A stretch of DNA of 64,000 bases, taken from IMG/VR virus record IMGVR_UViG_3300035001_000008, positions 61,756 to 125,755 of that record. The stretch is one strand, 5' to 3'. This stretch comes from a virus. A program made the position numbers and the translations under genes. A model generated the notes under the pieces. It worked only from the letters and a program-made list of their open reading frames with translations. It had not been told where the DNA came from and searched no databases. Positions 2,541-54,026 of this stretch are shown here, one piece after another (position 1 is the first letter of the stretch; each line of letters starts with the position of its first letter).

Positions 2541-5500
2541 TTAATTAGATCTTCCTAGAGCAATTAATAATTGATAGACAATTGAGTTAAACGTAAGCAT
2601 TTCATCGTTTGTATATGCCTCAGTTATTGCTGAAAAACCTATGTTTCTATTGGTATGCCCTTCAGCAGTAGAACCCCGCTTAAATCCTGACAACAAATAC
2701 ATACCATTTTCAATAGCCCCTGTAGCCGCTGTCCCTAATGTTCCAGCCGGTGAGCCGTTAACGTAGTATTGTGCCTGTCTAGAGGCTCCTGCCATGACAC
2801 TAAGCAAACCTACAGACGACGTTGGGCCTACTGCCCCAGCCGTAGATGATCCGCCGATCCGGCCTGTCTCTCTAGTGCCGTTGTAGGCAATGCCTGTATA
2901 TTGAGTAGCCACACTATCCCAATAGCCCATTAGCCATCGAGTACCGGCTAAAGATTCAGTCTGTGATGTCCATGCGTGTAGTGCTGCGTTTGTAGGTGTA
3001 ACCCTAGAGCTTGGGTTTATTCCTGTATTAATTGAACGTGAGCCGTTGCCTTGCATACCGCCCACTTTTGTATAACCCGCCGTATCAGATTGGGTCATTA
3101 CACCAACACTTTCTGTTAAATCAGTAGGGCTACGCAAGATTCTACGCATAGCGTGAGCTTGATTCTCACCCATTAATGGCATTAACGCCCAAACTCTAGA
3201 CCAAAGACCATTAGACTTCATAGTTGAAACAAAATTATCTAATGCAAGCATGTCAGCACTTAATGGGGCTGTGCCAGTACTTGCTAGAGATGCTGAAAAA
3301 TCAGCCGTGATTTGATTTGAATAAATTGAAGGCGTGATAATTAATGTAGGTGGCTGCATATCCAAAGAACTGGCTAATGCAGCATAAGGCGGTTTAATTT
3401 GGACTGCAATACGTTGAATACTTCTGATAAACGTTTCAGTTCTAGAATAAAACTGAATCATCTCAGAAGATGTCAGCCCTTTAGTTACTGCCCCCCATTG
3501 CAGATTACGGTTTGTTGAATAGTTAGGAGTTAAAACAGATTGCCCTGACCTAAAAGTAGCTAATAGCCAAATACCTGAAGCCAAAGAAGATGTAAGCGTT
3601 GCTGAGCTAGCAGTACCTACCGGTAAACCGTTATGGTAAAACTGAGAATTGCGAGTACCGCTATTTACCACAGATAACATGCCCGTTAATGTGGTATTGG
3701 CTCTGGCTGTATTATTTGCAGTAAACGCATTGCCGCCTAAACTACCTGCGTCAGTTGTGGATGTGTTTAACCTGCCAATAACAGTATGTTGGTCAGAAGA
3801 TGAGTTCATGCCGCCCATCAGCGTTCTAACGCCTGAAGCCGTTTCGATTTGCGATGTCCATACATGAAGCCCTACATCGTTAGCAGCTTGCGACGATAGA
3901 CTTAACCGTGCGGCTAGCGCTCTTAATTCAGACGCTACACCTTGCACACCGTTTTTACGTGAGTATCCTGACTCCGGTATGTTGTAGTTACTCATCTCTG
4001 AGAGTATTGCAAACGTACCTGGTCTATAGTCTAAAGCTTTCATTGCGGTTTCAAGATTACCGCCGATCAAAGGGAATAATTGAAATACTTTAGACCTTAT
4101 ACCATCAGTTTCTAAAGCTTTTAAGTAAGTATCTAAAGCTTGATAATCTTCCTCAACTACAACACCCTTTGAGGCACTGTTAATATATTTAAGGTCTTCT
4201 ACTAATGGGTCTGTTGTTGGTTCTGTACCTACATAGGGATAAGCCGATAACGCAGAACACCTAACGCCTAAACCCCTTGAGTTGAAATAGCTTCTAGGTA
4301 AAATTCTTTTAGTGTCTGTGCGTGTTTCAGATAAAACGTTTGTGTAAAGGCGAGTTGTACTAGACCCTGCTAATGAAAATACAGCAGAGAAATCACTATC
4401 AACTATAATAAATCCGGCTTCAATATTACGTGCAGCAACTTCAGTAGTTGTAAAATCTTCAATTGGATACAGAAACGTACCTAGCATTTCTGTTTTACCA
4501 CCGTTTATTGTTCTAACGGCTTCCCATCCACCTTCGGTTTTGAACCCTAAACTCCACAATTCTCCGCCATCGTTGAGAATCATGTTGGTATACTCAATAT
4601 TCAATGACCGAGCAAAATACTTACCACCAGGTTTTACTTGGAGCGGGTAAACTGCCGATTCAAAACTTGCTGGGCTACAAAGAACGTCATCAATAAAGAT
4701 TGGCCCTGCAATAGCTGTATTTGTAATCGCAATATAAGATCCTAGTCGGCAGTTTTTAATTACCAAAGGTCTAGGTGAATCATGCAGAATACTAATCTGA
4801 GTAAAGTTAGTTGCTGCACTAGCTCTAGCAGATAAATCTAAAGCGTCTAGCGTTAAAGGGTCGGTAGTGTCGCCTGTTGTTCTGATTATGGGTTTTGAGT
4901 TAGCTGACCAAAGCGTTCCTTTAGTTGTTAGAGTTACCTGATTTCCTACAATGCGTTTAACTGAAGGTGGAATAACCCAAGTGTCGCTAGTTGCATAGCT
5001 AGCCCGCTGAAAATATAGAATAGGTCTGCCTGATGCAGCGGCAGCATTAAGTCCCGTGATACTGTCTAAAGGGTCTGTTAAAAATACTGACGTAGGCTGA
5101 GCACCATAAGTTACTACGTTGGCCCAATCATCTAAATTAGTACTGTTAAATACGGGTGGTGAACTTTGAATAGGAAGTTTTAAGCTTCCTGGTGGTGAAT
5201 TAAACGCTCTATAAACTGAACTACTATACTCATCAATAGTCCCTGGAATAGTGCGGCCATTGCCAAGGTCTACAGTCGAACCATACCCACTAGATGTTAC
5301 ATTTCTCAGATATAAACTAACGCTTACCCCAACAATGGCAGAAGTACTAGCAGAACCTCCGTTAAGGGTGCCACCAATTAAAATAATACTTCCTGTGTTT
5401 GTGCCGCCACTGACCGTTAAAGCAGGCGCTAAAATAGCAGGCACTTGATTGGTAGATACTAGGTTTTCAATTGAAACCATATTATCTTCAAGATAAAAAC

Positions 5501-6731
5501 CCGCCACAGTTTGATTAGTGAGGATTAGGTTTACATAGGTTAGAGAATAAAAAGCTTGTCTTATCCTAAAACCGTATTGAAAACCATTAATCGTAATATC
5601 TTTATTTAGGTGCGGCCCATCAGATCTATTACCATGAATGCCTACATATCCGTTACCCGTCACGGTAACTCTCTCAATGCAACCCCAGTTATGCGAAGTA
5701 AAGTCTAAGGCTACTGCACCGGGGTTATTTCCGGTATCAATCACCATATCCATGCAGCGCATACCGAAGGCAGTATTACCACTACCCGTTGGGTTAACGG
5801 TTGTGCTTTGATTCTCAGAACCTCCAAGAATCATAAATGCTTTAGGATTTCCAGGATCATTAAACCCGATAGCATTATCAACTAATTTAAGAGTAGTTGT
5901 TTCCCTTGAATCTCCTTGAACTGTCCATCTAGCAAACCAATTATTATTTGATGGATTTACAGTACGGATAGTATCGTTAAAGTACCAAGTCCCTGCCGGG
6001 AAGATAATAGAACGGTTAGACCCTGGCTGAGTTTGGCACAATAAATTCCATACATCAGAGTTAGTCTGAGCAGATGCAGGGTCATTAGGGACACCACCAT
6101 TAGTTTGAAAGTTAATTAACCCGCTATCTGAAGGTCTACCGGATAGAAATGTAATTGCAGGCGGTTCAGGCGGGGTAGGTTCAACAATAGTAACTTCAAT
6201 AGCACCCGCAATGTCAGCCCAAGCACTAATATTTAAGTCAGTTCTAGCCCTGATTCGTGCTTTATAAAAACCTTCAGTACTTACCGTTGATGTATACGTT
6301 AAAAGGTTTGAAGCTAACTTTATAGGATTGCCTGTATAGTTATCAGCGTTAGGCGCTATTTGTAATTCGTAATACCTTACAATCGTGCTACTAGGCGCTT
6401 GCCAAGTTAGTTTTAATTGTAAATTACCTAAATTAGTTCCTTCTAATAGAAAAGGTTGATTGACCGTATTACCAAAGCTAATTGAAGATGCACTAGGTAC
6501 ATCAATCGCTACTGTCCCTGTTTGCAACCTATAGCAACGATTAGTTTCAAGTGTTAAAAGGCTATTTAATGTTGCTGAACGTCCTGCTTTCCAAGATAGC
6601 CAAAGTGATTGATCAACCGTATCTACAGCATGGATTATTGCACCTCCAACATTAAACACACTACCCGTTAGATTTGTTTGGGCACCTGTCCATGCAAAGA
6701 ATACTGTTTTGTTAGGAGCTACAATTGGCAT
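2541..6731 (-). CDS. Tail spike/fibre with FN3-like, pectate-lyase-like beta-helix and duplicated C-terminal lectin-like domains
   Basis: 1,396 residues, the largest gene in the window. Residues about 105-180 look like a fibronectin type III domain (LTWQAP ... YYELQIA ... YKARIRA), then a Pro-rich linker. At about 195-290 comes the entry motif of the pectate-lyase beta-helix superfamily (NSDVWNLLCQTQPG, IIFPAGTWYFNDTIR, TLKLVDN), followed by a long helix region. Residues about 863-1108 and 1162-1396 are a tandem duplication: both carry LHxWTSQxE, TRxLMG and QxYxNGxPxGT, resembling concanavalin/LamG sandwiches. A role in receptor recognition and surface polysaccharide degradation is inferred from the family. 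The ATG overlaps the preceding stop as TAATG. Confidence 0.85.
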   Translation of the reverse strand: MPIVAPNKTVFFAWTGAQTNLTGSVFNVGGAIIHAVDTVDQSLWLSWKAGRSATLNSLLTLETNRCYRLQTGTVAIDVPSASSISFGNTVNQPFLLEGTNLGNLQLKLTWQAPSSTIVRYYELQIAPNADNYTGNPIKLASNLLTYTSTVSTEGFYKARIRARTDLNISAWADIAGAIEVTIVEPTPPEPPAITFLSGRPSDSGLINFQTNGGVPNDPASAQTNSDVWNLLCQTQPGSNRSIIFPAGTWYFNDTIRTVNPSNNNWFARWTVQGDSRETTTLKLVDNAIGFNDPGNPKAFMILGGSENQSTTVNPTGSGNTAFGMRCMDMVIDTGNNPGAVALDFTSHNWGCIERVTVTGNGYVGIHGNRSDGPHLNKDITINGFQYGFRIRQAFYSLTYVNLILTNQTVAGFYLEDNMVSIENLVSTNQVPAILAPALTVSGGTNTGSIILIGGTLNGGSASTSAIVGVSVSLYLRNVTSSGYGSTVDLGNGRTIPGTIDEYSSSVYRAFNSPPGSLKLPIQSSPPVFNSTNLDDWANVVTYGAQPTSVFLTDPLDSITGLNAAAASGRPILYFQRASYATSDTWVIPPSVKRIVGNQVTLTTKGTLWSANSKPIIRTTGDTTDPLTLDALDLSARASAATNFTQISILHDSPRPLVIKNCRLGSYIAITNTAIAGPIFIDDVLCSPASFESAVYPLQVKPGGKYFARSLNIEYTNMILNDGGELWSLGFKTEGGWEAVRTINGGKTEMLGTFLYPIEDFTTTEVAARNIEAGFIIVDSDFSAVFSLAGSSTTRLYTNVLSETRTDTKRILPRSYFNSRGLGVRCSALSAYPYVGTEPTTDPLVEDLKYINSASKGVVVEEDYQALDTYLKALETDGIRSKVFQLFPLIGGNLETAMKALDYRPGTFAILSEMSNYNIPESGYSRKNGVQGVASELRALAARLSLSSQAANDVGLHVWTSQIETASGVRTLMGGMNSSSDQHTVIGRLNTSTTDAGSLGGNAFTANNTARANTTLTGMLSVVNSGTRNSQFYHNGLPVGTASSATLTSSLASGIWLLATFRSGQSVLTPNYSTNRNLQWGAVTKGLTSSEMIQFYSRTETFIRSIQRIAVQIKPPYAALASSLDMQPPTLIITPSIYSNQITADFSASLASTGTAPLSADMLALDNFVSTMKSNGLWSRVWALMPLMGENQAHAMRRILRSPTDLTESVGVMTQSDTAGYTKVGGMQGNGSRSINTGINPSSRVTPTNAALHAWTSQTESLAGTRWLMGYWDSVATQYTGIAYNGTRETGRIGGSSTAGAVGPTSSVGLLSVMAGASRQAQYYVNGSPAGTLGTAATGAIENGMYLLSGFKRGSTAEGHTNRNIGFSAITEAYTNDEMLTFNSIVYQLLIALGRSN

Positions 6732-39988: not shown

Positions 39989-41728
39989 TTAGCGAAGTGT
40001 GACTGTGTAGCCTTCGTTATTTTCCGTAAGCAATTCAATTGACATAGCCGCTGTTATGTACTTAGCGATTGAATCTACTTTTCTGTCCGGTAGAAGACCA
40101 TCACGTAGCCATTTAGTAGCCCAGGCTGAGCTACCTGTAACATCAGAAGCTTTGAATGTATTACCGTGCCCAACCTTTTTAAGGTGCTCCAAAAACCCAC
40201 CTAGACATTGATGTTCTTTTTTAGGTGACGATAACGCTTGCTTAATCACACCATCAATATAATCGGTACAGATAACAGGGTCATCCACAGGTTCACCCAT
40301 TAGGGAATCAAGGTCTACCATATCTCCTAAAAGAGTATCTAGGCTAGGAGCATCCATTAATTGAGTAGCAGCCTTAGGTGTTTCAGCGTCAAGCAAGGAT
40401 AGCTGAGCCGTAGCGATAGAAGGTGTTGTCACATTTTGAGGTTCACTTACCCAAGATCTAGTATCACGGTCATAACCTGAGTAGTTATGCAGCCGGTCTA
40501 ATGGTTGCCATTCGTTATAAAAAATAGCTCGGTCAACTTCTGACTTATCCATTAAATCTTCAAGTGTTTTCATTCCCTCTTCAGGAGATGGTACAAAAGA
40601 AGTATTGATAAATTGAGAAGCTAAGTCTTTGCGCTTTTTAGAGACAATGGCAATAGGCTTAAAGATGGCCCTATCCCCGCCTGTCATTCCCATAGAGCCG
40701 TTGTGGGGAATCTGACCCACACCCCATACATACTTACGTCGGCTATCCCCTGAAGATGATACGCCGATCATAAAAGATATAAAGCTAGCAAATTCTGCTT
40801 TGTCAGTAGACAGAAACTTGCGGCATGTAATAGTCCATTCGTCGATTACATACAAAATATCCTCTGGCGTATCCTTAAACTCTTGAATACGCTCTTTGAA
40901 CCACTTAATATAATCAGCGTCTTCTAATGACTCATGGCTGATACGATGCACTCTATCAAAATGGGTTGTCCAATACCCAGTTTCTTTAGGGTCATTTTTG
41001 GGATCAATGCCGACTACTTTAATACCTGGATTTAACGCTTTAACATGAGCGATAGCATTTGATACCAGCATCCCCTTACCTGCTCCAGGGTTGCCAATAA
41101 TCAGCAAAGACTCTAAGGTTTCTGCCATTTGAACAGGGATAGGCTTTTTAGCTTTGTGAGCAGACCTAACCTCTTGTGTATAGTCTTTGATTACGGTAGC
41201 CGTAGATTGCGGCTGTACTGGCATCTCAGCCTGCCTAGCCTGAATGATTTGGTCTACCACGCTAGGTACTGTGGTATTTTGCTCTACCCATTCATCAGGG
41301 GCTAACGGCTCATTGTAGAAAGCTTCTACATTTTCAGTTAGGTTAACTTGCTCATAATCTGTAAGCCCTGTAGATTCTTCAGGGTTTGATTCTTGCTTAA
41401 CTCTCACAGGCGGGGCTACCTCTACAGTCTCAGGAGTATCGATAACTTCCTCAGCCTCTACAGTAATAGCAGATCTCTTTGCCGACTTTGATTGTTTACG
41501 GCTTGCATACTTAAAATCGTTTATGCCCGCTAACGCTATAGACAAAGCAAAGGCAGGCGCTACAGATAGGCAAATGATAGGAGCTACTACACAACCAATT
41601 ACGCCGACTAGGCCGGGGTGTTGTGTCATGTGGCCAACAAAAAAGGGTTCGTCGCCTAAAGCATATTCATCGTTTAATCCTAGGGTGCTTGCCAACTTAC
41701 CAGCTCCCCCTGATGTTTGAATGGTCAT
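39989..41728 (-). CDS. Membrane-anchored VirD4/FtsK-like P-loop ATPase
   Basis: 579 residues. A hydrophobic region at about 36-66 (LVGVIGCVVAPIICLSVAP) suggests N-terminal membrane helices, then an acidic linker. Walker A is LIIGNPGAGKG (about 212-222), followed by VVGIDPKNDPKETGYW, a VirD4/HerA-style loop. Walker B is DILYVIDEW (about 285), with a GVGQIPHNGS sensor. The last 80 residues look like a winged helix (NTFKASDVTGSSAWATKWLR). Family members pump DNA or proteins across membranes or drive DNA segregation. With two envelope proteins upstream in the same direction, a transfer or membrane-segregation machine is plausible. Confidence 0.75.
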   Translation of the reverse strand: MTIQTSGGAGKLASTLGLNDEYALGDEPFFVGHMTQHPGLVGVIGCVVAPIICLSVAPAFALSIALAGINDFKYASRKQSKSAKRSAITVEAEEVIDTPETVEVAPPVRVKQESNPEESTGLTDYEQVNLTENVEAFYNEPLAPDEWVEQNTTVPSVVDQIIQARQAEMPVQPQSTATVIKDYTQEVRSAHKAKKPIPVQMAETLESLLIIGNPGAGKGMLVSNAIAHVKALNPGIKVVGIDPKNDPKETGYWTTHFDRVHRISHESLEDADYIKWFKERIQEFKDTPEDILYVIDEWTITCRKFLSTDKAEFASFISFMIGVSSSGDSRRKYVWGVGQIPHNGSMGMTGGDRAIFKPIAIVSKKRKDLASQFINTSFVPSPEEGMKTLEDLMDKSEVDRAIFYNEWQPLDRLHNYSGYDRDTRSWVSEPQNVTTPSIATAQLSLLDAETPKAATQLMDAPSLDTLLGDMVDLDSLMGEPVDDPVICTDYIDGVIKQALSSPKKEHQCLGGFLEHLKKVGHGNTFKASDVTGSSAWATKWLRDGLLPDRKVDSIAKYITAAMSIELLTENNEGYTVTLR

Positions 41729-41792: not shown

Positions 41793-42398
41793 TTAATCTG
41801 AGTAACTAGTACTTTTTCCCTTAGATGTGCTAAAGAACAGGATCACCCAAATAAACCCCTCAAAGCTGAGCATGGTTAGAAAGAATTTAACCAACTCGCC
41901 ATATTGGATATAATAGGCTTCCAGTAGAGGAAAGTCGGCAATGATTGCTGAAATACCACCTTCATAAGGCGGATACTCGATGAAGCATACAAGCGCTTCA
42001 AGGATGTATGCGCAACCGGCTAGCCATCGCCGCTTAGCTACCTCCTTCTCATCTGAGGAATTTACCCGTACTCGATTAGCGAAGATCTTTTCGATAATAC
42101 GCGCAGCTTCAGGTGATTCAGTCCCTAGCGCCAATATCTGAAAAAACTGACAGATAGCCATAAGGGCTACAGCCATAATCGATACAAGGTTATTCCAGAT
42201 AAAACTTACAAGCTGTTTAACACCGGGGATAGACATTAGAAAGTTGTCAAACGGCAAACTCACAATGTCTTCGCTAATCCAACGTGCAACACTTACCCAA
42301 GGTTGAACATTAAGCAGAAAGATTAGACCCAGAATAACCCAGATAAAAAACACACCGCCCCAGATAGCAATAGACCCGTTTCCTTTTTTAGTAGTCAT
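41793..42398 (-). CDS. Multi-span membrane protein
   Basis: 201 residues with four or five hydrophobic segments: about 10-30 (IAIWGGVFFIWVILGLIFLL), 65-90 (LVSFIWNNLVSIMAVALMAI), 122-145 and 172-192 (FFLTMLSFEGFIWVILFF). A basic cytoplasmic loop (VNSSDEKEVAKRRWLAG) lies in the centre. No family recognised. It lies between a secreted protein and the membrane ATPase in one direction, suggesting the three form a complex in the inner membrane. Confidence 0.75.
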   Translation of the reverse strand: MTTKKGNGSIAIWGGVFFIWVILGLIFLLNVQPWVSVARWISEDIVSLPFDNFLMSIPGVKQLVSFIWNNLVSIMAVALMAICQFFQILALGTESPEAARIIEKIFANRVRVNSSDEKEVAKRRWLAGCAYILEALVCFIEYPPYEGGISAIIADFPLLEAYYIQYGELVKFFLTMLSFEGFIWVILFFSTSKGKSTSYSD

Positions 42399-42399
42399 G

Positions 42400-42849
42400 T
42401 TAGTTTCCTTGTTGATTATCGTTGTGTGCGTAGATAGAGCCGGCTTTTACTGTTTCAAAGATTTCAGCAAATTGTTGTTTGTGTTCTGCTGCAATCACAA
42501 TAACTTCTGTAACCACACCATCTTGAGTAATTCCTATCCAACCCAACTCGCTACAAACAGTAGCATCATTTAGAATTACCTCTCCTGTAACAGGTCTTGT
42601 AAACCTCATTCCAGGTTCAAGAATAAAGGGTAGACCCGTAGCTGTATCGATTACGGGCGTGCAAGTTTTAGCAAGTTCTAAAGCGGCTCTAGAGTCTTTT
42701 ACTTGCTCTCTACCATGCGTAGACAAAGACTTTCTTTCTCTACTTAGTTGACCCTGGGTTTGGGTGTCTTGGGCTACTTCTCCAAGCCCACCCATAGAGC
42801 CAAATACACCGAGGGCAATAGCCCCATAAAACATCATTTTGATATTCAT
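42400..42849 (-). CDS. Secreted/periplasmic protein
   Basis: 149 residues. N-terminal signal-like segment (NIKMMFYGAIALGVFGSMGG), then a polar coil with Arg and Gln (DTQTQGQLSRERKSLSTHG), and a beta-rich end with two Cys. Not recognised. First gene downstream of the TTGGCAA repeat array, so those repeats may control this operon. Confidence 0.7.
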   Translation of the reverse strand: MNIKMMFYGAIALGVFGSMGGLGEVAQDTQTQGQLSRERKSLSTHGREQVKDSRAALELAKTCTPVIDTATGLPFILEPGMRFTRPVTGEVILNDATVCSELGWIGITQDGVVTEVIVIAAEHKQQFAEIFETVKAGSIYAHNDNQQGN

Positions 42850-42878
42850 TACTTAGTCCTTTGTTGTTAGTTAATTAG

Positions 42879-43077
42879 TTGCCAAAATGAAATTGGCAAA
42901 CGTTTGGCAAATGGTTTTTTCTTTGGCGTAACTTGGCAGATTTCACACCCTTGCCAAACTTGTCAACCCTTATGCCATAAGGCTTTGGCGGATTTACCCT
43001 GTTTTGGCAATTGTCACTTGGCAAGCTTTGGCAGGGTGTTTAGCGTTTGTTTAATCTGCCAAGTTTTGACTTGGCAA
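42879..43077. repeat. Array of TTGGCAA iterons (possible centromere, operator or origin)
   Basis: About 12 copies of TTGGCA(A/G) or TTGGCG lie in 199 bases. Direct copies start at 42893, 42904, 42923, 42933, 42985, 43004, 43018, 43028 and 43071. Inverted TTGCCAA copies lie at 42879 and 42951, with CTGCCAA at 43056. Several direct spacings are 10-11 bases, one helical turn. The region has no supported gene; a rightward frame here is made of the repeats themselves. Such arrays bind ParR-type or Rep proteins. A ParM/ParR-like pair lies about 0.6 kb to the right. Confidence 0.85.
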
Positions 43078-43156
43078 ACACACCTCAAAACCTTTCACAT
43101 TTTCCATTCACTCCTTGTTTAATTTTAACAAATATACTGTTTAATGTCCACTAATA

Positions 43157-43501
43157 TTAGATGGTATTAGCGGGTTTTTGAGGGTACTTAAACTTAGCAT
43201 TTAAGTAACTATACCCAGTCTTAGCTACGTGGTATTGAAAGCTGTTTAGCGTAATGTCTATCTCCAAGGGATGCACCTGAAACCATTTTGTAAAGTTTGA
43301 ATTGTATTCATTCTGACTGGTTAGCCTATCTCGCAATAATACAAACATTCCGTTATAGTACTCGTCAATTGAGAACGCTATTACTGTGTTTTTGTGAGGG
43401 CTATCCCAATCTAATGGCTTACTAACAGCAACTGGAACATCTGACCTAAAAATGACGTAATCGTTAGAACTTTCTGCCCAAACTAAGTAAAGATATCCCA
43501 C
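43157..43501 (-). CDS. Hypothetical protein behind a CRP-type box
   Basis: 114 residues from GTG 43501, AAAGGACAAAAATC upstream. Aromatic, strand-rich (GYLYLVWAESSNDYVIFRSD; VIAFSIDEYYNGMFVLLRD) and a basic Tyr/Lys end. Not recognised. It lies between the iteron array and the ParR-like gene. A perfect TGTGA-N6-TCACA site lies 39 bases before its start. Confidence 0.65.
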   Translation of the reverse strand: MGYLYLVWAESSNDYVIFRSDVPVAVSKPLDWDSPHKNTVIAFSIDEYYNGMFVLLRDRLTSQNEYNSNFTKWFQVHPLEIDITLNSFQYHVAKTGYSYLNAKFKYPQKPANTI

Positions 43502-43588: not shown

Positions 43589-43680
43589 CTACACAGACTA
43601 ATTACAGTTTGATTAAATATGCAGCAACATGTAATCAATCATTAATCAATACTAGATTAAGTGTGTATTAGTCTGTGTAG
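43589..43680. repeat. 14-bp perfect inverted repeat downstream of parR
   Basis: CTACACAGACTAAT (43589-43602) and ATTAGTCTGTGTAG (43667-43680), with nested TTGATTAA/TTAATCAA inside. GTGTAG recurs at 43686-43691. A similar CTACACAA ... TTGTGTA pair lies before parM at 45088-45121. The repeats bracket the ParM/ParR-like operon and could be binding sites for its small protein. Confidence 0.6.
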
Positions 43681-43696
43681 CGTTGTGTAGAAAGTA

Positions 43697-43990
43697 TTAG
43701 TCCTCCCTATCGTCAAAAACGTCATCCAGTGAAAAGCTAGGAGGTGTTACAGGGGTAGAATTAGATTGTTTTTGGTTAGGGGCTGTTAACCCTGTTTCCG
43801 TTAGGTCAAACACTGCTGTATTCATAGCGGCATTGCCGTATCTAATTAGCAGTTCTTTGATAATGTAAGTTTGACTCTTACCCGACGCTTTACACAGGCT
43901 GTCTAGCGTAGTTAGAGCTTTCGTATCAAAAGCATTTGTTCTATTGAAGCGAACATTAGTGAACTTGTACTTATCTGCTGGGGTAGTCAT
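43697..43990 (-). CDS. ParR-like ribbon-helix-helix protein
   Basis: 97 residues. Residues about 8-50 fit an RHH fold: a strand (KFTNVRFNRTNAF) then helices (TKALTTLDSLCKASGKSQTY; IIKELLIRYGNAAM). The C-terminal 45 residues are disordered, Pro/Asn-rich and end acidic (SFSLDDVFDDRED), as in ParR tails that contact ParM filaments. It starts six bases after the ParM stop. Role: DNA-binding adaptor of a type II partition system. The family is inferred from size, fold pattern and context. Confidence 0.7.
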   Translation of the reverse strand: MTTPADKYKFTNVRFNRTNAFDTKALTTLDSLCKASGKSQTYIIKELLIRYGNAAMNTAVFDLTETGLTAPNQKQSNSTPVTPPSFSLDDVFDDRED

Positions 43991-43996
43991 GGTAGA

Positions 43997-45064
43997 TTAC
44001 AGTGTTGGGTTAGCTAGAACGTGGGCATTGATTACTTGAGCAAACGTGTCAGGATAGTCATTGCTCTTAGGAATGAAGAATCTACCTTCTGTCATCTCTT
44101 CCATAACCTCAGCATGGTAAGCACCGCCTCCAACTAGAAGCACTTCGCCTAGCTGCTCACCGAACCACACTTCTTTGAGAAGATAGCGGCCTAAAGCTTT
44201 GAACCACTTCAACCGTTCTTGGTCGTAAATATCGTGAAAATAGTAATCATTGCCTGAATGCGTATACATAAAAGGATTACTAGGATCGTTCTCAGCAGTA
44301 AAACCTTCCTTGCGGTACTTTAGACCCGCTTCTATTGCTGTCATGATTACAGCCTCATCTAGGCTTTCAGATAGTCCATTATCCTGCTGAATACGATAAG
44401 CAATACCCCGTGCAAGGTCGTTAAGTCCTTTTTTATGCTGGCTAAGCTTCCAGTTAATGCGGCCACCTGGCGAGATAAGCCTAGCCGTCATAGCCCCGCC
44501 ACCAAAGTCAATAATGCCTTGTGATCGGCTAGGGAACTTAAAAGCGTTGTTTGTGATTGCCCACATATAAGGAGGTAGCCCCTCAGGAATCAAAGTAACT
44601 TTGTCTATCCGTACAGACCATGAATCCTGCCGATATTGAAATTTAATGGTTTGGCCATCTAGCAAAGTTTTGAATTTTTCCCAACTCTTATTACGGTGAT
44701 CTTCTACCAACACTCGCAAATTAGAGATTACTGGGGTCTGCACTTGAAACCCTACTTGAGCAATCACAGCCATAACCATAAGGTGTGATTTATTGCTTTT
44801 ACCTTCCTTAAACATAGGAGGGCAATTTAGTTGCTTTGCCCGTTCTCCAATAACGTAACGCCGACCTTCATAGGTGATAACTACAGACTCAGGCTTGTTC
44901 AATTCTTCCTGATATTGCTGTTCATCCTGAATCTCACCGATGTAAGAAGGCATACGCTTTACGTTGCCATAAGCATCTACCCACTTAACGTAAGCGTTAC
45001 CAGGATCAAACCCCAAAACATCCATTTTGCCAATAGTCGGCATTTCATCCTTTTTAGTAGGCAT
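43997..45064 (-). CDS. parM: Actin-like partition ATPase (ParM/StbA family)
   Basis: 355 residues, usual ParM length. Phosphate-1 motif DVLGFDPGNAYVKWVDAYG (about 14-32), phosphate-2 IIDFGGGAMTARLIS (about 188-202) and adenosine motif EVLLVGGGAYHAEVM (about 307-321). GAGGAAATT precedes ATG. ParM polymers push plasmid copies apart when joined by ParR to the parC site. In phages the same family can also centre or move phage DNA. It is followed by the ParR-like gene. Only the exact subfamily (ParM versus Alp7A-like) is open. Confidence 0.85.
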   Translation of the reverse strand: MPTKKDEMPTIGKMDVLGFDPGNAYVKWVDAYGNVKRMPSYIGEIQDEQQYQEELNKPESVVITYEGRRYVIGERAKQLNCPPMFKEGKSNKSHLMVMAVIAQVGFQVQTPVISNLRVLVEDHRNKSWEKFKTLLDGQTIKFQYRQDSWSVRIDKVTLIPEGLPPYMWAITNNAFKFPSRSQGIIDFGGGAMTARLISPGGRINWKLSQHKKGLNDLARGIAYRIQQDNGLSESLDEAVIMTAIEAGLKYRKEGFTAENDPSNPFMYTHSGNDYYFHDIYDQERLKWFKALGRYLLKEVWFGEQLGEVLLVGGGAYHAEVMEEMTEGRFFIPKSNDYPDTFAQVINAHVLANPTL

Positions 45065-45190
45065 AATTTCCTCATTAAATAGTATTGCTACACAATGTAA
45101 GATTATTAATCACTTTGTGTATAACGACAATTTAACGCTAATCTCATCTAACGCAATCAGTAAATACACGTAACCTTTATCTAATCTTTA

Positions 45191-45220
45191 TGGCGTATTA
45201 GATGCTACACGGGTTATAAT
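45191..45220 (+). promoter_or_regulatory. Rightward promoter with TTAGAT box
   Basis: TGGCGT (45191-45196), spacer with ATTAGATGCTACACGG, TATAAT (45215-45220). TTAGAT is eleven bases from the -10. Two further TCTAA boxes lie upstream, in the gap shared with parM. Confidence 0.55.
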
Positions 45221-51308: not shown

Positions 51309-54026
51309 ATGAATCTGGCAAACAAGCAAAATAATGTCATCTCATTTACTCCTACCAGCTCTGAACTAAGGGGTTCTTTGATTTCAGGTCTATCTATAAT
51401 CCCTGCTGATTGGGCGCTGACGCCTGTAATTGATAAAGCACCTATGCGTAGTGGGTGGCAGACTGAAGCGCCTATTGATAGAAATAGGCTGACTGAATCC
51501 CTTATGTATGGTGATGAACTACCTAGTAGTAAAGGCGGTAAGTGGAAAGCATGGTGGAATGGATACGGTATTAGAACCGGGTCGGTAAGTGGTGGATTAT
51601 TGGCCATTGACTGCGATGGGCCGTCAGCTAAACGAGTACTTACAGCATTAGGGCCATATACTTCTACAGTTAGTTGGACTTCTGGTAAGCCTGGTAGAGC
51701 ACAACTGCTATATCAATTGCCTAGAGATCTACAAAAGCGTATGGACGCTGTTAATTTCTCTAACGTTTCAGTTGATGAATACGATGGGGTTACGGCAACC
51801 GTAGGGGAGGAACTAGGCTTTAGATACAATGGCGCTTGCTCAACCTTGCCACCGTCGTATCATCCCGATACTAAAGAACCATACAGATGGATCATTTCTC
51901 CTGAGGGCCATACTGTATCAGACGCCCCTAAATGGCTAGTTCAATTTTTAACAGATAAATGTGATGAAATTGAATTAGATACCCTTGCTAAAAAAGCAAC
52001 GCTAAATCATGAGGCTAAAGCTAAAGGAGGATCATGGGACGATGTTGAATGGGCCAAGCACTACCTAAGAAATATCAACCCTTCTACTTTTGATTGGCAA
52101 TCTTGGTCTAAGTGTGTATTCGCCGCTCATACGGCTGGAGTAGATGAGGATACAGTTAGAGCATGGTCTGATAACTATAAAAGCCCTGAAAAGTTTGATA
52201 TTACTTGGCCGTACATCAAAGAAAGGGTATCCGGTAAGCGTGTTTCTATTGGAACATTAAACTATTTTGCAAAGCAGCAAGGATGGTCTGCTGTAAAAGC
52301 TATTGAAGATGGTTTTGTTCCAAGTGAAAAAGCCAAAGATGATTATGAGGTATCTTTTGCTGAGCTAATAGCGGAAGTAAGAGAAGCCAATGAACATAAA
52401 GACGTTGACTACAGAGATTTTGTATTATTTGACAAACTAGTAAAAAAGCACAATACTACCCGAAAGCGTATAGAAGAGATATTAAGGAGGATTCAAAAAG
52501 ATGAAGGTATTCTACAAAAAACAAGCTTTTCAGCAAAAGAGTTTTGTAATTTAGAAGAAGATGGTATTGGGTGGCTTATCCCTGGATTTGTACCCTCTAG
52601 CACCATGATTATGTTAAGTGCTATCGCTAAGGATGGTAAATCTACCTTAGTGTATGACCTACTTACAGCACTAATACATAAGCGTCCTTTTTTAGGTGAA
52701 AAGCCTACTAAACGCTGCAAAGTTTTACTTATTCAAACAGAGGAAAATGCAAGCGTTCTAAAGAAGAATCTAGATACAATTGGTTTATTTGATGAGAGTT
52801 GTGTATTAGACGATGATTTACTAAGAGTTGAACTGTCTTGGGATATTAACCGCTTAGATATTCTTGAGGGTTGGATTTCATCGTATAAGCCAGATTTTAT
52901 TATCTTTGATTCTTTAAGGTCGATCAGCGGAAATAATGCGGGTGAGTCAGCTAACGAGAATAATGCTCAGTTTGCTGTCCCTTTGGGCAACTTGAAAAGT
53001 AAGTTGAATACCTTTGGCTTACCTAGCCTAATCATTCACCACAATAATAAGTCAACTGAATCTAAGTTGAACAATAAATCAGCGGGTTCAGGTTCTATCG
53101 TATCTAAGCCAGATATTCTTTGGCAGTACGGAAGACTATCTGATGATATTCACGATCCTAAGCGTCTTCTAACTATAAGTGGGCGTCTATCCGCAAGCGT
53201 GTCATATAACATTGAATACACTCACGATGAATACGACAGACCTACCTTTAGAAATAATGGTGATGTTTCGGCATCGTCGGAAGAGAAGACATTGCGTAAA
53301 CGTGTAACAGACGTTCTAGAGGCCAACTACACCACTTGCCCCGCTGGGTTAACCCATACTGACCTAGCGAACCTTCTAGGGCTTGAGAAGGGTCACAAGT
53401 ACCTCTACAAGGTTTTAGATTTTCTTGTCTCAGCAAAGATAGTCAGTAAGACCAAAATGCCTAGCAATGCCAAGGTGAGACTATATAAACTCAGCCAAAC
53501 ACCTGAGAGTAGTACACAGTCTCAGAATGAAACTCATAATGAATCCGCTTTAACCTCTAATTACATGGATATGCCTAGAGTTAGTGAGAATAGACCGTAC
53601 ATAGATAAAGCTAGTAATATCAATACTTCTAGCTTTTCACCGAACATTTCACCGAACCCCTTGTACGGTGAAGAAAATGTTCACCCTAGTATAAATACGT
53701 ATGAAAACCAGAAACCCTTGCAGCAAGTGGATTTCAATGGTGTTTCACCTAAGAAAATGGTTTTCACCCAAGAGGGCAAAATCCATGTTGAGAGAATAGT
53801 ACAGTCTCATGGGAGTAGTGCCATTGGGCCTGATGGCCAGTACAGAAGAGATGTTAGCCCCCATACAAGAGATAGACCCCCTAGCCTAGTACCCAACCCC
53901 GCATATATCACAAGTTCTGTTACATCCGGCTTCCCGGAGGTTGTTACTAAGACTGAGCCTATTATCCATAAGGATTATTCACAGGTAGGAGCATCGACAA
54001 CAGCAGGGGAATGGGTTAGCTTCTAG
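51309..54026 (+). CDS. Primase-polymerase fused to RepA-type helicase
   Basis: 905 residues. N-terminal PrimPol domain: D101-C-D103 in LLAIDCDGPS, then SGKPGRAQLLYQL and the CSTLPPSYHPDTKEPYRW stretch. A PriCT-like segment follows (WAKHYLRNINPSTFDWQSW, about 250-330). The AAA/RepA ATPase has Walker A LSAIAKDGKST (about 436-446), Walker B FIIFDSL (about 528-534) and LIIHHNNKS (about 573). The C-terminus has a winged helix (LTHTDLANLLGLEKGHKYLY) and a long Ser/Asn/Pro-rich tail. The protein would make primers and unwind DNA, as in many plasmids and phage replicons. Confidence 0.9.
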   Translation: MNLANKQNNVISFTPTSSELRGSLISGLSIIPADWALTPVIDKAPMRSGWQTEAPIDRNRLTESLMYGDELPSSKGGKWKAWWNGYGIRTGSVSGGLLAIDCDGPSAKRVLTALGPYTSTVSWTSGKPGRAQLLYQLPRDLQKRMDAVNFSNVSVDEYDGVTATVGEELGFRYNGACSTLPPSYHPDTKEPYRWIISPEGHTVSDAPKWLVQFLTDKCDEIELDTLAKKATLNHEAKAKGGSWDDVEWAKHYLRNINPSTFDWQSWSKCVFAAHTAGVDEDTVRAWSDNYKSPEKFDITWPYIKERVSGKRVSIGTLNYFAKQQGWSAVKAIEDGFVPSEKAKDDYEVSFAELIAEVREANEHKDVDYRDFVLFDKLVKKHNTTRKRIEEILRRIQKDEGILQKTSFSAKEFCNLEEDGIGWLIPGFVPSSTMIMLSAIAKDGKSTLVYDLLTALIHKRPFLGEKPTKRCKVLLIQTEENASVLKKNLDTIGLFDESCVLDDDLLRVELSWDINRLDILEGWISSYKPDFIIFDSLRSISGNNAGESANENNAQFAVPLGNLKSKLNTFGLPSLIIHHNNKSTESKLNNKSAGSGSIVSKPDILWQYGRLSDDIHDPKRLLTISGRLSASVSYNIEYTHDEYDRPTFRNNGDVSASSEEKTLRKRVTDVLEANYTTCPAGLTHTDLANLLGLEKGHKYLYKVLDFLVSAKIVSKTKMPSNAKVRLYKLSQTPESSTQSQNETHNESALTSNYMDMPRVSENRPYIDKASNINTSSFSPNISPNPLYGEENVHPSINTYENQKPLQQVDFNGVSPKKMVFTQEGKIHVERIVQSHGSSAIGPDGQYRRDVSPHTRDRPPSLVPNPAYITSSVTSGFPEVVTKTEPIIHKDYSQVGASTTAGEWVSF

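Follow-up and report, generated by a model that had tools for sequence, protein, structure and literature searches.

A dense cluster of short repeats with the core TTGGCA lies between two groups of genes in a stretch of 64,000 nucleotides of viral DNA, which was analysed as a whole and is called the window in the following. The question raised by this locus is which protein reads these repeats and what they are for. From the letters alone, a centromere bound by ParR or an iteron origin bound by a Rep protein had been proposed. Here, the comparison with related loci disfavours both partners, and the likely one is the ATPase encoded by the adjacent operon.

The array and its neighbouring genes

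The array occupies positions 42879..43077 within a gap of 307 bp (42850-43156), approximately 0.62 kb beyond parR, which confirms the intergenic location given before. Ten exact copies of TTGGCA are present between 42880 and 43076, three on the minus strand (42880, 42952 and 43057) and seven on the plus strand (42893, 42904, 42933, 43004, 43018, 43028 and 43071). Two copies of TTGGCG (42923 and 42985) raise the number of TTGGC[A/G] sites to 12, in agreement with the at least 12 copies of TTGGCA(A/G) in both orientations that the sequence-only reading had counted, and the degenerate copies TTGTCA (42960 and 43011) and ATGGCA (42972) bring the array to about 15 sites. In 20,000 dinucleotide-preserving shuffles of the 199-bp stretch, exact TTGGCA occurred 0.82 times on average and five times at most (P = 5e-5, which is the floor of this test). 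Measured against the whole-window background, it stands out as the strongest of all hexamer clusters (Poisson p = 4e-16), and the remainder of the 125-kb element showed no TTGGCA cluster like it. The data support the description as a dense array of sites of a protein-binding type. The spacings of 10-11 bases ascribed to it are indeed present (11, 10 and 10 bp); the array as a whole, however, is irregular. Furthermore, it contains a large, nested, imperfect inverted repeat, in which 42930-42966 pairs with 43018-43065 via a perfect 13-bp outer stem (AACTTGGCAGATT / AATCTGCCAAGTT; folding z -3.25). A palindrome, CCTTATGCCATAAGG, lies near the centre of the array (42968-42983).

On the minus strand, the gene order starting from parM is parM, parR, o114, the array, o149, o201 and the ATPase gene. 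The presence of ParM/ParR-like genes near the array was borne out, since the 355-aa actin-like protein (43997..45064) matches ALP_N and the partition protein family phrog_691, and the 97-aa ParR-like protein (43697..43990) matches the ribbon-helix-helix (RHH) model RHH_1 with an E-value of 0.0014, just below the Pfam cut-off. The small protein o114 (43157..43501) is located between parR and the array. On the other side, the operon starts with the small protein o149 (42400..42849), followed by o201 with three predicted membrane segments (41793..42398) and an ATPase of 579 aa (39989..41728), which displays a membrane segment (residues 39-57), a RecA/TcpA-like ASCE motor (residues 193-428) and a C-terminal domain (CTD, approximately residues 500-579; 39992..40231). 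This CTD is probably a winged helix and is proposed here as the reader of the array.

Related modules show the same order of parM, an RHH gene, a gene of ~110 aa, a protein of 136-220 aa, a membrane protein and the ATPase. In these, the position of o114 is taken by the unrelated-looking gene of ~110 aa and that of o149 by the 136-220-aa gene, and these third and fourth genes nearly abut without an array between them. The modules reside on cyanobacterial plasmids and chromosomes, and all hosts named to genus belong to genera which we take to be filamentous, a few MAGs being named only to order or family. A first search of the genome contigs with o201 gave no match, and no paper describing this parM-to-ATPase module was found in the open-access literature. 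In one locus (L043), a psbA-like gene (photosystem II D1; 5464-6639) lies 1.8 kb from the ATPase gene, and this 30-kb contig also has ParA/ParB-like genes.

The prophage carrying the array

Contig C36 contains a HIP1-free insert of low GC (~38%), and the window lies inside it. A direct repeat of 122 bp, which overlaps a tRNA-Phe gene, bounds this insert at C36:106025 and 231434, with an integrase gene adjoining the left repeat. The insert encodes tail fibre J, tape measure, head protease, portal and terminase, as well as a family A polymerase, a prim-pol, a sliding clamp and parts of an RNR. The element is a tailed prophage of ~125.4 kb integrated in tRNA-Phe (G000:C36 106025-231555), and its host is presumably a Leptolyngbya-like cyanobacterium. 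The DNA polymerase is related to that of Nodularia phages, in whose polymerase region no parM or ATPase is annotated. Among INPHARED phages and among viral contigs, no relatives of the ParM or the ATPase were found.

As judged by the polymerase, the nearest phage relatives are G194:C70 (48%) and G294 (39%). The contig G194:C70 carries a phage-type polymerase together with parM twice, exactly 102,201 bp apart, which suggests a circular or concatemeric element of this length, possibly an extrachromosomal relative.

A centromere or an origin of replication?

If the array were a parC centromere, the ParR-like RHH protein would bind it and ParM would segregate the DNA. Genuine ParM and RHH genes are located 0.6 kb away, and part of the spacings (10-11 bp) resembles those in parC of plasmid R1. 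Across related loci, however, the array sequence does not go with ParM and ParR. Between the loci L110 and L111, a stretch of 1255 bp across parM-parR is 86% identical, yet the ATPases and the arrays differ, and arrays also accompany ATPase genes that have no parM nearby. The absence of the array in close relatives that keep parM and parR had been named beforehand as part of what would speak against the earlier reading, and this is what was found: the loci of the nearest phage relatives (L103 and L108) contain parM-parR and a following operon of like kind, but no comparable array. By eye, the ATPase of L103 also lacks the winged-helix-like C-terminus. Instead, short GTCACCAC repeats flank parMR in both loci, at the same places where another repeat, CTACACA, flanks parMR in the window, namely downstream of parR (43589..43690) and upstream of parM (45087-45210, with copies at 45087 and 45204). 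This flanking has a P of 6e-7, calculated post hoc, and makes the CTACACA repeats candidate ParR sites. In two further loci, parM is preceded by a separate AACATG array (L097, 6182-6267; L098, 11405-11492), in addition to the one at the ATPase 3' end. Thus, the TTGGCA array neither adjoins parMR nor tracks ParR in relatives.

The second proposal was an origin at which a Rep protein would bind the repeats as iterons. Arrays in both orientations beyond Rep/primase-type genes in relatives (L101, 12499-13077; L106, 15011-15273), which may themselves be origins, would fit this. Against it, the sites in the window are too short and too irregular for classical iterons and lie in both orientations, where an iteron origin would have direct repeats at regular intervals next to a rep gene; no rep gene adjoins them. 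Cumulative GC skew, which had been put forward as a check, has its minimum near 50.7 kb, away from the array. Furthermore, the prim-pol/AAA gene has an array of its own inside its 3' end (53635-53772), consisting of six copies of TTTCACCGAAC/TTCACC in both orientations (p 6e-11), which is the better candidate for an origin.

Because the arrays differ at similar parM-parR genes, the phage relatives are array-free, CTACACA flanks parMR and prim-pol has its own array, we regard a centromere as improbable and an origin as very improbable.

Arrays at the ATPase genes of related modules

In a scan of the relatives for dense hexamers, the strongest clusters were located at the end of the ATPase gene. 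The word differs between the relatives, with GATACA (12 copies) in L110, CGTGTC (7) in L111, GTGGCA (7) in L113 and L114, ACCCGA (8) in L115 and GGGTCA (7) in L116, and within the arrays the spacers vary while the word is kept. Inside the GCCAC-type arrays of L120, L128, L133 and L136, a common core resembling CTTACGCAGCAAGCGCC is seen.

For a formal test, further loci were fetched by similarity of the ATPase or ParM alone, the ATPases were clustered at 80% identity, and an array was defined as a hexamer cluster in both orientations with p < 1e-8 within -60/+240 bp of the ATPase stop; the other gene ends within the same loci served as controls. An array of a 6-7-bp word was present at the 3' end in 16 of 27 independent ATPase clusters in comparison to one of 246 control gene ends (Fisher 7e-18). 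Among the clusters fetched after the idea had been set down, 8 of 15 were positive (L120, L126, L128, L133, L136, L168, L174 and L182). By eye, the array-negative ATPases mostly share other C-termini, either of the SIDEF...ELKLDG type (L119, L139, L169, L171 and L178) or of the QTxxIxxLW type (L122 and L138).

In the window, no array is present at the ATPase stop and there is no other array near this ATPase, so that the upstream TTGGCA array, 1.15 kb from the ATPase start, is the only candidate site. This 5' position, in contrast to the 3' position in most relatives, is the main weakness of the assignment to the ATPase. It is unusual but not unique, since a GAAACG array lies 5' of the operon in L134 (Phormidesmis LEGE 11477) and several Nostoc modules contain an upstream array beside an HTH-like gene; in the set of independent clusters, this arrangement is otherwise confined to L134 and part of the Nostoc group.

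The upstream position is also where an operator would lie, at which a repressor, perhaps the CTD of the ATPase, o114 or a phage regulator, would control the o149-o201-ATPase operon. The array spans the interval between a promoter-like sequence on the minus strand (TGGACA-17-TAAAAT, 43122..43150) and the operon start at 42849, TTGGCA is identical in 5 of 6 positions to the -35 hexamer TTGACA, and the upstream array of Nostoc adjoins the HTH-like gene. However, the promoter-like match is not above chance, approximately 15 sites over 200 bp far exceed what an operator needs, and in most relatives the array comes after the final gene of the operon, the wrong place for an operator. An operator is unlikely, although it ranks second after the loading site described below. 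A functionless family of short repeats (STRR-type or transposon-like) might be considered as well, as short tandem heptamer repeats occur in Nostocales genomes. Such a family is hardly credible here: the 251-bp stretch containing the array is single-copy in the whole 5.9-Mb genome, and across relatives the constancy of the word between variable spacers and the association with one gene family also argue against it.

The C-terminal domain as proposed reader of the array

Which part of the ATPase would read the array was addressed by comparison between loci. In a set of 17, the similarity of the arrays goes with that of the CTDs (Mantel r 0.49, p 8e-4), also given the motor (partial Mantel 0.52, p 4e-4), and shows no association with motor similarity (Mantel r 0.02). 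Between L111 and L113/L114, the motors look unrelated, yet homology at the DNA level sets in again across the final 190-210 bp of the ATPase gene and ~140 bp of array; between L120 and L128, homology within the ATPase region covers only the CTD end and the array. This suggests that CTD and array recombine as a single DNA unit. Here, the word shifts by one base, from TGCCACG in L113/L114 to TGACACG in L111, in nearly all copies, as expected if the changed protein reads all sites. A blind case is provided by L104, which was found via ParM and encodes an unrecognised protein of 599 aa with a CTD like that of L115; both have RDxxRASLxALK as a CTD motif and CCCGACA as the word.

Taken together, the correlation, the joint homology, the concerted word change and the case of L104 and L115 point to the CTD of the ATPase as the reader. 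Joint recombination of neighbouring CTD and array could alone create part of the correlation, and such hitchhiking can add to the shared homology and to the Mantel result, less so to the concerted word change.

Structurally, the ATPase of the window shows the N-terminal membrane segment and the ASCE motor of TraB-type proteins. In the full-length AlphaFold model, the regions around the motor are of poor quality, whereas the motor itself (193-428) is modelled with confidence and has Rho, TcpA and KaiC as its best Foldseek matches. The model of the CTD has the topology helix-strand-helix-helix-wing, which fits a winged helix, at a mean pLDDT of 61; all its Foldseek matches have E > 0.06, and these weak matches include winged-helix proteins, among them the pNOB8 centromere binder AspA and TubR. 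Searching solved structures by sequence yielded no significant match. No FtsK/TraB match was obtained for the ATPase of the window, and no member of the family matches the FtsK, SpoIIIE or TraB models reliably, coupling-protein models (Pfam, NCBIfam) matching weakly: FtsK_SpoIIIE matches two relatives out of 18, with E-values no better than 0.0017, and the NCBIfam model plasmid_TraB one out of 18 at 0.068.

A probable loading site for a membrane-anchored ATPase

We consider it reasonably probable that the array serves in cis, in the manner of clt or KOPS, as the site at which the membrane-anchored ATPase encoded by the neighbouring operon is loaded. From the array, the operon, the motor fold and the family-wide link of arrays to the ATPase and its CTD, all of which are observed, we infer binding by the CTD, assembly, translocation and its direction. 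The C-terminal winged helix would recognise TTGGCA(A), and many ATPase subunits would assemble on the clustered, inverted sites. The motor would then pump the double-stranded DNA of the element across or towards the membrane, assisted by the two small proteins o149 and o201, at least one of which is a membrane protein, and the DNA might reach a neighbouring cell or a daughter cell.

Most likely, the pair in the window is one of many cyanobacterial pairs of motor and repeats resembling the DNA transfer system of Streptomyces plasmids. A broader and rather doubtful proposal is that filamentous cyanobacteria and a tailed prophage share a TraB-like pump, unrelated in sequence to TraB, which exists in many lineage-specific pump-array pairs and allows double-stranded plasmid or prophage DNA to pass along the filament without type IV secretion. 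If true, the phage would gain a second, non-lytic route of spread. Such machinery, now placed on a prophage, hints at how plasmids that lack relaxase or secretion genes could be passed on among filamentous cyanobacteria. In any case, a recurrent, unnamed cyanobacterial operon, mostly annotated as hypothetical proteins, is tied to a cis site, and at least 12 natural pairs of motor and DNA word are available for decoding specificity.

Comparison with known systems

The module shares the ParM-like actin and the RHH ParR with parMRC loci, from which it differs in an array that lies 0.6 kb away and does not follow the evolution of ParMR, other repeats flanking parMR. With FtsK/SpoIIIE and their KOPS/SRS, it would share a motor with a C-terminal winged helix for short words, as the model of the CTD suggests. 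KOPS, however, are dispersed and polar over the chromosome, whereas the window has one dense cluster of mixed orientation, and TTGGCAA shows no KOPS-like strand bias across the element (23 plus, 19 minus). The coupling protein TcpA of pCW3 from Clostridium resembles the ATPase in its motor fold (6o1x, Foldseek E 3e-5, TMt 0.37), although the sequence identity is only 14%.

The closest parallel is found in TraB of Streptomyces, an FtsK-like membrane motor, whose C-terminal winged helix binds 8-bp clt repeats and which moves double-stranded plasmid DNA (PMC4170104, PMC3583192). TraB of pSVH1 reads its 8-bp repeats via this C-terminal winged helix, and for pWTY27, clt comprises 16 bp of traA and an adjoining 159 bp that contain TGACACC repeats; the footprint there is that of TraA, which has two membrane segments (PMC3583192).

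The cyanobacterial ATPase differs in having no significant sequence homology to TraB/FtsK models, in sites of both orientations, in a three-gene operon coupled to ParM-ParR, in its hosts and in its carrier, a tailed prophage in which the array is upstream of the operon. Since the architecture is the same and the FtsK/TraB models match weakly, TraB-clt-like is used as a working assignment rather than as an established membership. In common with the TraB-clt systems of pSVH1, pJV1, pWTY27 and the AICEs are the putative membrane-anchored motor for double-stranded DNA with a predicted C-terminal DNA-reading domain, the membrane helper genes and the cluster of short repeats beside the motor gene, 5' of the operon in the window and 3' in relatives, with another word in each element. 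Furthermore, AICEs are often integrated in tRNA genes, as is the element of the window.
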